Positions 41,947 to 46,545 are shown, counted from the first letter of the stretch. The stretch is 64,000 nt of DNA from Halosegnis longus (GCF_009663395.1 NZ_QKNW01000001.1:1922001-1986000); one strand, 5' to 3'. A program made the numbers and translations. The notes: generated by a model not told the origin, from the sequence alone.

Positions 41947-42144
41947 TTACGCGGCAGCGTAGGCGGCGCTTCGCTGCTTGCGGGTGATGTAGCCGGCGAT
42001 GCGGTTGCGGACGCCCTTCGACTCGACGTTCGTGACGGCGGTGACGACCTCCTTGTTGTGCTCGAAGTCGGTGCTGAACGCCTCGTCGTATCGTTCGATG
42101 AGCGCGCGGGCGAGCTTCTTGATGTAGGCCGGTTTGATAGGCAT
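41947..42144 (-). CDS. rps17e: 30S ribosomal protein S17e
   Basis: 65 aa. [57 protein letters not shown] is the archaeal/eukaryotic S17e fold almost to the residue, with the NxxxSKxxRNxIAGY box. Located just after the DUF447-type gene (49 nt). A small TATA-like element AAGATGCC region precedes it, so it may be transcribed separately from the cofactor operon. Confidence 0.95.
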
Positions 42145-42193: not shown

Positions 42194-42754
42194 CTACTCG
42201 GTCAGCGCCTCGAACCGTCGCCACGCCTCGCGCTCGCGGTTGCCCCCGGCGCGCTCGACCACCGACTCGCAGAAGGCGATTCGCTCGCGTAGCGTCTCGT
42301 CGTCGTAGCCAGCCACGCCGAGCCGGGAGGCCGCGACCGTCGCCTCCACCACCGCGGCGTGAGCGCGCGACACCGTCGGAACGACTCGCTCGCGCACCTC
42401 GCTCGCCTCCACCCGGAGTTCCCAATCGACCCACTTGGTGCCGTCCTCCTCGCCCGCGTCCGTCTGTGCGACGCGCACCTCGGCCCACGCGCTCGCGGAC
42501 GCGAGTATCGGCTCCTCTTCCTCGCGTATCGAGCAGGCCGCCTCCACGAAGTCGACGGGGTCGCGCGTGAACTGGACGTAGCCGCGCCCGCGCTCACGGA
42601 AGTTGCGCCACGTCCGGGTCCGACCCCACGTCCGTGCCGTCGCCGGGTCGCCCGCGTGGACGCCGAGCGCGGCCACGTTCCAGCGGTCGTTCGGCCCGCG
42701 GGTCGTCACCACGGTCTCCGTCACGCCGTCCCAGTCGGCCGGCCAGTCGCTCAC
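42194..42754 (-). CDS. DUF447-family flavin-binding-fold protein
   Basis: 186 aa. GTG start overlaps the stop of the upstream gene by 4 nt (GTGA). DUF447 has a split-barrel, flavin-reductase-like fold. The [34 protein letters not shown] opening and the [16 protein letters not shown] motif match this family. In methylotrophs, DUF447 genes sit in tetrahydromethanopterin clusters; in haloarchaea the function is open. Last member of the cofD-led unit. Confidence 0.82.
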
Positions 42755-43584
42755 ACGGACAACCCCCGTTCGAGGGCGACGTACAGCGACGCACACGTAA
42801 TGTCGGCCGTCGTCCCCGGATTGATTCCCCGCTCAACGAACTCCTCGGCCACCCGTTCGGGGTCCTCCTCCCCGTCGAGACAGGCCTGTGCCCGGCGGGT
42901 CGCCTCCCGCGCCGCCTTCGGCCCGGACTGCTGGCGCACGAACCCGTCTTCTTCCGCGGCGAGCAGTCGCAGGAATGCGCGGCTCGCGCGGTCCAGCACG
43001 GGACCGTCGCCGTCGAGGATGCGGTCGGCCTCGCGGAACGCCCGCGGGAAGCCGTTCGTCCACTCGGCGGCGTTGCCGTCACTCTCCGAGTGGACCATCA
43101 CGTCGTACAGGGTCACGCCGTTGCGTTCGAGGGCCGGAACGGCGTCGCTCCCGCGTCTGGCGTCTAACTCGTCCAGCTCGGCCGGCGGGTCGGCGAGCGC
43201 CACGTCGACGTGTTCGAAGGCGCGATAGAAGCCGGCGGCGTCGGCCACCGTGGTCGCCTCGCACACCTCGCGCACGCCGTCGCGCGTCAGCTCGCCCGCG
43301 CCCGCAGCCCGGACGAGTGGCACGAGCAGGAGCAGACAGCCGAACTGCGTGTTGCCGCCCTCCTGTTCGGCCATGCCCGCGACGGCGGTCTCGAAGGCCT
43401 CGCCGACCGGCTCACCCGCGGCGGCCGCGCGAAGCCCTTCGCCCGCCCCGACCGAACCCGCGAGGAAGTGTTCGAACCGGAGGTCCTCGTGGTCGCGGTG
43501 GCGGTCGACGTTTCCCGGCTTCGGTGTGCCGGCGACTTCGAGCAGGAGCGCGAGCTCTGCCTGCTCGGCGTGGGTTCGACTCAC
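42751..43584 (-). CDS. CitG-like triphosphoribosyl-dephospho-CoA synthase family protein
   Basis: 277 aa, all-helical CitG/MdcB fold: TPKPGNVDRHRDHEDLRFEHFLAGSV (about residues 20-45) and QEGGNTQFGCLLLLVPLVRA are the two ATP/Mg-binding regions; NGVTLYDVMVHSESDGNAAEWTNGF and the C-terminal GINPGTTADITCASLYVALE follow. In bacteria CitG makes the citrate-lyase prosthetic group. Haloarchaea have no citrate lyase here, so the archaeal subfamily must act elsewhere, possibly in a cofactor path. It overlaps both neighbours by 4 nt. Confidence 0.85.
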   Translation of the reverse strand: MSRTHAEQAELALLLEVAGTPKPGNVDRHRDHEDLRFEHFLAGSVGAGEGLRAAAAGEPVGEAFETAVAGMAEQEGGNTQFGCLLLLVPLVRAAGAGELTRDGVREVCEATTVADAAGFYRAFEHVDVALADPPAELDELDARRGSDAVPALERNGVTLYDVMVHSESDGNAAEWTNGFPRAFREADRILDGDGPVLDRASRAFLRLLAAEEDGFVRQQSGPKAAREATRRAQACLDGEEDPERVAEEFVERGINPGTTADITCASLYVALERGLSV

Positions 43585-44312
43585 GCGCGAGTCACCTCCG
43601 GCAGCGCGTCGTGGACCCGTTCGAGCACGCGCGGGCTGTCCGACGGTCGCCCGACGCTCACGGCGTCGGCCCCGTAGTCGAGATACTCGCGGACGGTCGC
43701 TCGGTCGCGCACCCCGTTGTTCGCGATGAGAAAGCAGTCGCAGGCGTCGGCGATGTCACCGACGACCGACTCGGTGTCCATGCAGTCGACGTGGAGACAG
43801 TCGGCACCCGCGGCTTCGAGGTCGCTGGCGAGGGTCGGCAGGTCGACACCGGTCTCGGCGCGCAGTTTCACCCCGACTGCCGCACCGGTCTCGCTGGCGA
43901 CGCGGACGTACTCACGGAGTCGGTCCGTGTCTCGCAGGAGCGTCTCGCCGGCCCCGACCGCACAGAGTTCCTCCTGTCGGCAGTGGGCGTTCACCTCCAG
44001 TATCGCATCGCGGTCGGCGGCGACGCGGGCCGCCTCGCGGAGCGGGTCGGTGCTCGTCGCCCGGACGTTTACACCGGGTCGGAGAGCCACGTCCGCGAGC
44101 GCCGCGAGCTGGTCGTCGATGAACGCAATCGGGTCCGCGGGGAGAAACTCCGAGCGGTCGCGGGCCACCAGTTCGCGGGCGGCCTCGCGGGTCGACGCGT
44201 CGAGCGAGACGCCACCCACGAACGCACAGCCGGCCCACTCGCTCCCGGCTTCGGCCCACGCGGCGTCGGCCTCACCGGAGAGCGACGCGAGCGCGAGCGG
44301 CGGCGTGAACAT
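43581..44312 (-). CDS. Dus-like TIM-barrel flavoprotein
   Basis: 243 aa. Related to tRNA-dihydrouridine synthase / dihydroorotate dehydrogenase barrels, but shorter than true Dus proteins (about 300-350 aa) and without the C-terminal RNA-binding helices. The sequence EVNAHCRQEELCAVGAGETLL holds the active-site-type Cys, KLRAETGVDLPTLASDLEAAG the substrate lysine, and NNGVRDRATVREYLDYGADAVSVGRP the FMN phosphate site. An RNA role is unlikely; a small-molecule reductase is possible. It shares one base with cofD and overlaps CitG by 4 nt. Confidence 0.8.
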   Translation of the reverse strand: MFTPPLALASLSGEADAAWAEAGSEWAGCAFVGGVSLDASTREAARELVARDRSEFLPADPIAFIDDQLAALADVALRPGVNVRATSTDPLREAARVAADRDAILEVNAHCRQEELCAVGAGETLLRDTDRLREYVRVASETGAAVGVKLRAETGVDLPTLASDLEAAGADCLHVDCMDTESVVGDIADACDCFLIANNGVRDRATVREYLDYGADAVSVGRPSDSPRVLERVHDALPEVTRA

Positions 44313-45304
44313 CAGGTCACCTCCCCGAGTGCGCGCTCGACGGCACGCGCGACCCGGGCGCTGTCCTCCGGCGTATCGAGTGTCGTGTCGGTGCGGACGG
44401 TCGGACGCGCGAGGTCGGTGTCGTCTTCGGCGTCGAGGACGAACGCGTCGGCGAACTCGTACACCGAGGCGACGCCGGCGGTCGACGGCTCGCGACCCGT
44501 CGCGGCCATCAGCTTCCCGGCGGGGCCGGAAAACACCTCGTCGCCGACGAACGGGGAGACGGCGACGACGGGCGTCGAACCGAGCGCCTCGCGGAACGAT
44601 TCCATCGCGAGCATCGGGCCGAGTGAGGTAACCGGATTCGACGGGCCGATGACCACCGGCTCGGCGAGCGCGTCCACCACCTCGGGCGTCGGCTCGGCCT
44701 CGTCTGCCCCCCGGAACTCCACCTCCTCGACGGCCGGTTCTCCGCCGTTCGCGACCCACCACTCCTGGAAGTGCTGTTCGCCGTCGGGCGTGTGGATGAT
44801 GGTCGCGACGGGGTCGTCGCTCATCGGGAGAATCGTGCGCTCGACGCCGAGCGCCTCGCGCAACACGGCCGTCGCCTCGGTCAGGGTGTCGCCCTCGTCC
44901 AGCCGGCCCGTCCGGGTGAGGTGGACGGCGCGGTCGCGGTCGCCGATGAGCATGAACTCACCGACGCCCGAGAACCGTCGCCAGCGGGCGAGTCGCCGAC
45001 CGCTCGTCTGTGCCTCGGCGTCGAGATACCGGGGGTCGGTTCCGAGTCCGGCGCGCTCGGCGAACTCGTGGAGCGCGTCGTGGGTTTCGGTCGTCTCGTC
45101 GGCGAGTCCCCACCACGTCTCGGTGTCGAGTTCGCCGGCGTCGGCAAACAGTTGCGTATCGAGGTCCGGACAGACGAGGTGGCCCGCGAGTTCGACGTCG
45201 TCGCCGGTGTTGGCGACCACGGGCGTGTCGGCGGGCGGAAACGTCGCTGCGGCTCCGTGGAGGAGTTTCGGCGTCCCCGTGCCGCCGGCGAGGAACGTTA
45301 CCAT
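44312..45304 (-). CDS. cofD: 2-phospho-L-lactate transferase (CofD), coenzyme F420 synthesis
   Basis: 330 aa. Joins the phosphoenolpyruvyl or lactyl-guanosine-diphosphate activated acid to Fo to form (dehydro)F420-0. The sequences [15 protein letters not shown] (about residues 4-18), [32 protein letters not shown] and [15 protein letters not shown] (about 222-236) fit the family, with the dinucleotide-binding GxGxxxL. First gene of a tightly overlapping set (Dus-like, CitG-like, DUF447). The divergent HD gene lies 89 nt away. Confidence 0.95.
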
Positions 45305-45393: not shown

Positions 45394-46545
45394 ATGAACG
45401 CCATCAAGGACTCCGTCCACGACTGGATACCCCTCGATTCGGTCGCGACGGACCTACTCGACACGGCGGCCTTCCAGCGGCTCCGTCACATCAAGCAGCT
45501 CTCGACCGTCCGGCTCGTCTACCCGTCTGCCTCGCACACCCGCTTCGAACACTCGCTCGGCGTCTACCACCTCGCTCGCACCGCCCTCGACTCGCTGGGG
45601 ATCGACGACGACCGCGCGAAGGCCGTCCGGGCGGCCGCGCTGCTTCACGACGTCGGCCACGGCCCGTACGGCCACCAGACGGAGACGGTCATCAAACGCC
45701 ACACCGGCCGCGACCACGACGAACTCGGCGACCTGCTGTACGAGACGGAACTCGCGGGCGTGCTCGACGCCCACGACATCGACCCCGACCGCGTGGCCGC
45801 GCTCGTCCGCGGAGAGCGACCGCTCGGTCAGCTCGTCGCCGGCGAACTCGACGTGGACCGGATGGACTACCTGGTGCGGGACGCCCACCACACGGGCGTG
45901 CCGTACGGCACAATCGACCACGGCCGGCTGGTGCGTGACCTCCGACTGCGCGACGACCAACTCGTGCTCGCGGAGGGGAACGTCCAGACGGCCGAGTCGC
46001 TGCTGCTCGCCCGGACGCTGATGGACGGGACGGTGTATCGCCACCACGTCTCGCGCATCGCTGGCGCGATGCTCGAGCGCGCCTGTGAACGCCTGCTCGA
46101 CGGCGACACCGACATCGAGACGTTCGCGCGGATGGCCGACCACGACCTGCTCGTCGCCCTCCGGAAGAACGTGCCCGACCTCGGCGGGCGCATCGAACGC
46201 CGCGACCTCTACAAGCGCGCCGTGTGGGCCGGCCTCGACACCGTCCCCGACGCCCTGACCGACCTCTCGCGGGCCGACGAGCGACAGGCCGCCCGCGAAA
46301 TCGCCGACCGCGCCGGCGTCGACCGCGAACACGTCATCGTGGACGTGCCATCGCGGCCGAAGCTGAAGGAGTCCCGGACCCGGGTCGTCGTCGGGGGCGT
46401 CGTCCAGCGACTCGAACAGGCCTCCGACCTCGTCTCCGCGCTGCGGGCGACCCGGCGCTCGCAGTGGCGACTCGGCGTCTACGCGCCGGCGGCCGACCAG
46501 TCGGCCGTCCACACCGCCGCCCGGGAGGTGTTCGGCCTGCCGTGA
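45394..46545 (+). CDS. HD-superfamily phosphohydrolase
   Basis: 383 aa. HD motif ALLHDVGHGPYGHQTE (about residues 85-100), preceded by RLRHIKQLSTVRLVYPSASHTRFEHSLGV (H...HD ligands), and later ELDVDRMDYLVRDAHHTGV, whose Asp completes the metal site. This SAMHD1/dGTPase-like arrangement fits the YdhJ subgroup of dNTP or nucleotide phosphohydrolases. It is the only HD enzyme here. ATG 45394 was chosen because MNAIKDSVHDWIPLD is the family's usual first strand. Confidence 0.9.
   Translation: MNAIKDSVHDWIPLDSVATDLLDTAAFQRLRHIKQLSTVRLVYPSASHTRFEHSLGVYHLARTALDSLGIDDDRAKAVRAAALLHDVGHGPYGHQTETVIKRHTGRDHDELGDLLYETELAGVLDAHDIDPDRVAALVRGERPLGQLVAGELDVDRMDYLVRDAHHTGVPYGTIDHGRLVRDLRLRDDQLVLAEGNVQTAESLLLARTLMDGTVYRHHVSRIAGAMLERACERLLDGDTDIETFARMADHDLLVALRKNVPDLGGRIERRDLYKRAVWAGLDTVPDALTDLSRADERQAAREIADRAGVDREHVIVDVPSRPKLKESRTRVVVGGVVQRLEQASDLVSALRATRRSQWRLGVYAPAADQSAVHTAAREVFGLP

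Follow-up and report, generated by a model that had tools for sequence, protein, structure and literature searches.

A CitG-like and DUF447 gene pair next to cofD in haloarchaea as a candidate source of a methanopterin-like pterin for methionine synthesis

Why cofD, a gene of F420 synthesis, heads an overlapping operon with genes for a Dus-like flavin barrel, a CitG-like protein, and a DUF447 protein, and what these enzymes make, is the question raised by a locus of Halosegnis longus (GCF_009663395.1). We analyzed a window of 64,000 nucleotides (NZ_QKNW01000001.1:1922001-1986000), from whose first letter the positions below are counted. An initial annotation of this window had described the operon at positions 42194 to 45304 and had suggested that it could make or modify a one-carbon or F420-type cofactor. 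The operon was confirmed there: CofD and the Dus-like gene overlap by 1 nt (TGATG), and the Dus-like and CitG-like genes, as well as the CitG-like and DUF447 genes, by 4 nt each (GTGA in both cases). The genes and two landmarks outside the system are as follows.

44312..45304, minus strand: CofD, 2-phospho-L-lactate transferase of F420 synthesis (330 aa; TIGR01819 equivalog)
43581..44312, minus strand: short Dus-like flavin-barrel protein (MJ0144-like) without a C-terminal RNA-binding domain (243 aa)
42751..43584, minus strand: CitG-like protein of the archaeal/H4MPT-type subfamily (277 aa; PF01874)
42194..42754, minus strand: DUF447, FMN-binding split-barrel family protein (186 aa; PF04289 and PF20766); a longer in-frame ORF from 42796 is also listed
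41953..42144, minus strand: ribosomal protein S17e, downstream landmark (PF00833, 56.5 bits)
45394..46545, plus strand: divergent HD-domain protein, upstream landmark (PF19276 and PF01966)

CofD scored 354.9 bits against the TIGR01819 equivalog (cut-off, 257.45 bits), and DUF447 scored 88.8 and 59.4 bits against DUF447_N and DUF447_C, respectively. The Dus-like protein was just over the cut-off of PF01207 (25.2 versus 20.4 bits) and under those of TIGR00736 (107.9 versus 218.7 bits) and the DusB equivalog TIGR00737 (17.5 versus 293.3 bits). It ends together with its barrel match, at profile position 226 of 311, which fits the earlier description of this 243-residue protein as short and devoid of RNA-binding helices.

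The CitG-like protein matched PF01874 with 205 bits (cut-off, 27 bits), has a PDB relative in 3h9p, and shares both the family and the conserved KPG, GGNT..G, and NPG..AD motifs with the CitG of Escherichia coli, which serves citrate lyase. On these grounds it might be taken for a true ATP:dephospho-CoA triphosphoribosyl transferase acting on behalf of the acyl carrier protein of citrate lyase or malonate decarboxylase, but we regard this as extremely improbable. The cut-offs of the citrate CitG and MdcB equivalogs were missed by more than 240 bits (TIGR03125, 24.2 versus 272.3 bits; TIGR03132, 27.6 versus 282.35 bits), and citrate-lyase genes were not seen beside the CitG-like gene. Phylogenetically, the haloarchaeal proteins form one clade (99/97) nested among those of methanogens, beside Methanocella/Methanomicrobia proteins (wider fork, 84/86); the branch of E. 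coli CitG is very long, and its placement is not trustworthy. Furthermore, the archaeal proteins and those of bacterial H4MPT clusters share N25, P89, D115, D169, and N255 (numbering of the window protein), whereas E. coli CitG, the only outgroup sequence in this comparison, has L, L, T, G, and S at these positions.

For DUF447, an AF2 model was obtained with a pLDDT of 94.7, and a single-sequence model (pLDDT, 44.9) was discarded. The model resembles all four DUF447 structures compared (2nr4, 2iml, 2ptf, and 3b5m; Z scores of 16.6 to 23.0) at 23 to 26% sequence identity; bound FMN is stated in three of their four titles, and none of the titles assigns a reaction. The FMN-bound structures 2nr4 and 2iml gave Z scores of 23.0 and 22.9, respectively, and flavin reductases gave Z scores of 10 to 14. 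The predicted fold is thus like that of FMN-bound proteins, and a common fold does not show the reaction.

The gene set is real and conserved. Among 106 genomes of Halobacteria with a completeness of at least 90%, CitG and DUF447 were both found in 103, and in each of these they adjoin on one strand. CofD lies within 3.5 kb upstream of CitG on the same strand in 87 of the 103, so that the unit of four genes is frequent without being invariant. Where CofD has moved elsewhere or to the other strand, Dus stays beside it in 11 of 12 cases examined (loci L096, L097, L099, L100, L102, L104, L107 to L110, and L112), and CitG and DUF447 remain paired in the same eleven genomes. The twelfth (G021) retains Dus-CitG-DUF447, with CofD on another contig, which is the order found in methanogens; two further genomes (G002 and G069) have CofD-CitG-DUF447 without Dus in between. 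The operon is therefore composed of two separable pairs, CofD-Dus and CitG-DUF447, and a single functional unit of four genes was rejected because Dus travels with CofD. Judging from these cases, the haloarchaeal operon looks like an older Dus-CitG-DUF447 cluster that CofD apparently joined.

The co-conservation of CitG and DUF447 extends beyond close relatives. A conserved-word search with CitG gave 80 named loci of methanogens and ANME archaea, and DUF447 follows CitG directly in 64 of them, as in haloarchaea; of the other 16, 3 have no room downstream, and in the remainder the gene may be missed or separated. A Dus-family barrel lies upstream of CitG in 43 of the 80 loci, although the barrel proteins of methanogens have at their C terminus a methanogenesis marker 9 domain (TIGR03277) that is absent from the haloarchaeal protein; the full order is kept in G021. 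CofD, which joins the CitG locus in haloarchaea, does so rarely elsewhere, being present in only 2 of the 80. Across the phylum, DUF447 was found in 188 of 197 genomes, and those lacking it, apart from three haloarchaea, are draft assemblies of 80 to 270 contigs.

Five plasmid-borne H4MPT gene clusters of bacteria combine CitG with MptG, mch, and fae, and DUF447 was found in three of the five stretches (Azospirillum oryzae, Phyllobacterium, and Azoarcus), the two others having been read over 12.8 kb only. The statement in the initial annotation that CitG-like and DUF447 genes accompany H4MPT genes was accordingly borne out. No cofD was found in the stretches read. Compared with these H4MPT/methylofuran clusters for formaldehyde oxidation, such as that of the A. 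oryzae plasmid NZ_CP054618.1, in which CitG-like, DUF447, and beta-RFAP synthase genes stand with mch, the haloarchaeal genes are dispersed: CitG-DUF447 lies with CofD, and MptG, Mer, and Mch lie elsewhere. Besides, no fae, mtdB, fhc, or methylofuran gene turned up alongside the haloarchaeal genes, whose use would be methionine synthesis rather than formaldehyde oxidation.

Sulfolobus acidocaldarius, taken as a control genome, has matches to CitG, DUF447, MptG, and PF01717 but none to CofD, Mch, or Mer. Sulfolobales are reported to possess a folate analogue with features of both folate and methanopterin (PMC3261824), whereas haloarchaea also have folate synthesis. It has also been reported that the succinyl form of beta-RFA-P is converted into beta-RFA-P by PurB in Methanocaldococcus jannaschii (PMC3261824), and part of the arylamine route is hence already known there.

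These distributions bear on the suggestion that the CitG-like, Dus-like, and DUF447 proteins tailor F420 after the CofD step. Although their genes overlap with cofD in the window and CofD precedes CitG in most haloarchaea that have the pair, CofD is present in all 106 genomes, including those that have lost CitG and DUF447, and CofD-Dus is apart from CitG-DUF447 in many genomes. Moreover, CofD is nearly absent from the methanogen CitG loci, no CofD match accompanies CitG and DUF447 in the genome of S. acidocaldarius, and no cofD was seen in the bacterial stretches read. We rejected F420 modification because CofD is universal and separable, and consider it very unlikely. The initial lead was thus partly supported: its one-carbon component is right in direction and fits the phyletic data, and its F420 alternative is not supported.

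The beta-RFAP synthase MptG catalyzes the committing step of methanopterin synthesis. A homologue is encoded in the genome of H. longus on the minus strand (C1:2089812-2090759), 125 kb from the operon, at a locus that is not itself a cofactor operon. Like the links to Mer and methionine synthase described below, it lies outside the window, and all three had been missed by the initial annotation. The haloarchaeal protein belongs to the family TIGR00144 (163.6 to 163.9 bits; cut-off, 113.5 bits) but falls short of the NF040726 equivalog (174.3 bits; cut-off, 328 bits), for which reason we term the pathway methanopterin-like and do not speak of H4MPT synthesis. The GLGSGTQ loop is kept, and so is an Arg seven residues past the position of D19; in the RFAP synthase of Methanothermobacter, R26 is needed for pABA binding (PMC6787355), a correspondence that rests on the seven-residue spacing, the aligned set containing no Methanothermobacter sequence. 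All nine aligned haloarchaeal sequences have Asn at the D19 position, and the D19N enzyme of Methanothermobacter retained some activity (PMC6787355). The mptG product of Haloferax volcanii, HVO_2628, has been judged unlikely to be an RFAP synthase (PMC8305020).

In Halobacteria, the same 103 genomes have DUF447, CitG, and MptG, and the same three (G001, G007, and G018) have none of them. A Mer orthologue (match of at least 266 bits) was found in exactly these 103 genomes; searches of G001 and G007 gave no match to Mer, and that of G018 gave a paralogue only (E value, 9.7e-39). The two genes of a split methionine synthase, MetE, are also adjacent in exactly the 103. G001 and G007 have one divergent MetE catalytic subunit, with 46 to 47% identity to that of H. 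longus (identities among the module-bearing genomes compared, 54 to 95%), and gave no match to MetE2; in G018 no catalytic subunit was found, the one gene of the pair that it keeps being MetE2-like and divergent (51% identity). Conversely, CofD, Mch, and PF00809 (as the fused FolCP) occur in all 106 genomes, the three losers included. Dus, too, is kept in the three, which rules it out as a member of the RFAP set in haloarchaea; the initial annotation, which had placed it in one set with CitG and DUF447, has to be corrected in this respect.

The four co-lost loci are unlinked in the genome of H. longus (0.197, 0.816, 1.96, and 2.09 Mb). G001 and G007 represent one genus, and in the genus of G018 the genes are still present in all other members sampled. 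The deletion contexts also differ: S17e, the conserved downstream neighbor that otherwise comes after DUF447, lies within about 65 nt after Dus in G001 and G007, and in G018 a DHS-like gene stands between Dus and S17e. Since nothing is missing from the congeners of G018 and the contexts are unlike, the four unlinked loci were apparently lost twice, independently. Incompleteness is an unlikely cause of the absences, because G007 is a single contig of 2.09 Mb. An identical set of three absences would have a chance of 1 in 193,000 if the genomes were independent, which they are not, and it is therefore fairer to speak of two events, each of which removed four unlinked loci together. The signal within the class comes from three genomes, in which the genes were lost about twice; the agreement across four loci is striking but does not amount to many independent trials.

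Coincidence would be another way to account for this pattern, with small or auxotrophic genomes dropping methionine synthesis and, separately, unrelated genes. Indeed, the three losing genomes are small (2.1 to 2.4 Mb), and G018 is without a catalytic methionine synthase. Against this, G021, G093, G010, and G066, at 1.9 to 2.5 Mb, keep every component, and the same four unlinked loci disappeared from both lineages, neither of which lost Mch, CofD, Dus, or FolCP; we therefore hold a coincident loss to be improbable. With regard to a possible replacement of Mer by MetF, E. coli MetF was searched against 1.64 Mb of G007, about four fifths of the genome, and the sole match was antisense to a CBS-domain ORF. 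A methylene-THF reductase is mentioned in the description of the anaerobic haloarchaeon Halodesulfurarchaeum (PMC5437934).

In methanogens, Mch uses H4MPT. As a user of the new product only, however, Mch was ruled out by its presence in all 106 genomes: being kept where the module was lost, it at least does not need the product there. A new carrier replacing folate was rejected because FolCP is universal. Neither does a second, stand-alone dihydropteroate synthase qualify as an RFAP-specific condensing enzyme, since module-bearing genomes such as G021 and G050 have only one PF00809 match each, and the second enzyme thus does not track the module.

The loss pattern suggests Mer and the split MetE as probable users. 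Mer of G002 scored 435.8 bits against NF002619 (cut-off, 276 bits), and the cut-off of TIGR03555 was reached by no haloarchaeon among the 106 genomes. MetE2 contains a Meth_synt_1 domain, and the split MetE includes a pterin-binding subunit. In G002, G010, G023, and G093, cofE is the immediate neighbor of mer, and the two genes are also near each other in H. longus, which links F420 to Mer; in H. volcanii, cofE and mer are HVO_1936 and HVO_1937 (PMC8305020). According to the same study, haloarchaea lack methanopterin-specific enzymes and their Mer and Mch have folate as substrate, and a passage in PMC3261824, citing earlier work, states that some Halobacteria contain tetrahydrofolates. No methionine auxotroph was reported from a transposon screen of 4,100 H. 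volcanii mutants (PMC4300041), a result that we regard as uninformative. We found no report of a modified pterin in a haloarchaeon in the literature searched.

If folate is the substrate, as argued in PMC8305020, it could be the sole C1 carrier, and the three families would make a non-pterin cofactor or modification for the methyl branch, serving Mer or the split MetE. Folate synthesis is universal in the 106 genomes, and all that follows from the co-loss is that genomes with Mer and MetE require the product. Nevertheless, all three families stand in bacterial H4MPT clusters and occur in methanogens that use H4MPT, and the split MetE has a pterin-binding subunit, so that we regard a non-pterin product as rather unlikely.

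On the basis of the family assignments, the operon, the gene adjacencies, the presence and absence of genes, and the DUF447 fold, we infer with moderate confidence that MptG acts with the CitG-like protein and DUF447 to make a methanopterin-like pterin that is based on a ribofuranosyl-arylamine and derived from RFAP. This pterin would carry methyl groups from Mer to methionine synthase beside folate. MptG would join PRPP to an aromatic acid, and the CitG-like protein, by analogy with CitG, may employ ATP to donate a (phospho)ribosyl or related nucleotide group. DUF447 may be the FMN reductase of the pathway and could perhaps convert the ribofuranosyl ring into the open ribityl chain. F420-dependent Mer would then convert the methylene-pterin into the methyl-pterin, and the pterin-binding subunit of the split MetE would pass the methyl group to homocysteine. 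CofD would supply F420 for Mer, and its place in the operon may be explained by this need of Mer; Dus accompanies CofD.

In its widest form, the proposal is that nearly every haloarchaeon has two C1 carriers in use, H4 folate for purines and thymidylate and a previously undescribed, methanopterin-like pterin, derived from RFAP, that serves only the methyl branch from Mer to the split methionine synthase, and that CitG-like and DUF447 are two missing biosynthetic enzymes common to methanogens, Sulfolobales, and methylotrophic bacteria; we give this an about even chance. It is at odds with the published view, in which haloarchaea have no methanopterin-specific enzymes and their Mer is folate dependent (PMC8305020). 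If it is true, the RFAP synthase homologue that is now judged a probable misannotation would have a function. Furthermore, the roles of CitG-like and DUF447 proteins, which haloarchaea share with methanogens and methylotrophs, would become accessible to knock-outs in an aerobic and genetically easy archaeon, and the predicted phenotype is simple, namely, methionine auxotrophy.

Methionine synthase genes persist singly in the three haloarchaeal genomes (G001, G007 and G018) that lack the CitG-DUF447 module. The catalytic gene of G001 and G007 falls short of the 406-bit cut-off of PRK04326, scoring 324.7 bits in G001, and no pterin-binding partner was found in G001 or G007, while no match to the catalytic subunit was found in G018, which holds a solitary gene for a MetE2-like (pterin-binding) partner. 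Two further MetE2 matches were each flagged with one in-frame stop.

L203:9337-10422 and L204:9619-10704 (G001/G007), divergent catalytic methionine synthase, solitary
G018:C3:37051-37968, divergent MetE2-like gene, solitary, 51% identity
G070:C1:438578-439561, MetE2 match, in-frame TGA
G066:C16:47242-48258, MetE2 match, in-frame TAG

PF00809 matched twice per genome in most haloarchaea and once in G021 and G050. In G087, a stand-alone dihydropteroate synthase (L095:7456-8382; TIGR01496, 191.6 bits, above the cut-off of 162.6) is a second copy beside the fused folate-synthesis protein FolCP.

In most named methanogen loci, the Dus barrel upstream of CitG carries the methanogenesis marker 9 domain (TIGR03277) as its C-terminal part, whereas the haloarchaeal Dus-like protein lacks it.

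L059:35-604, Dus barrel with C-terminal TIGR03277, upstream of CitG, methanogen type
L088:27-668, Dus barrel with C-terminal TIGR03277, upstream of CitG, methanogen type

In the CitG tree, the protein of locus L189 (DYFG01000074.1), labelled Candidatus Nitrosotalea, falls inside Methanophagales; this contig is probably misbinned.

Gene order also varies among haloarchaea. At loci L048 and L098, the Dus-like gene was not found between CofD and CitG (G002 and G069). The small genome G021 (1.9 Mb; L046/L103) has CofD on a separate contig, and its Dus-CitG-DUF447 order resembles that of methanogen CitG loci.
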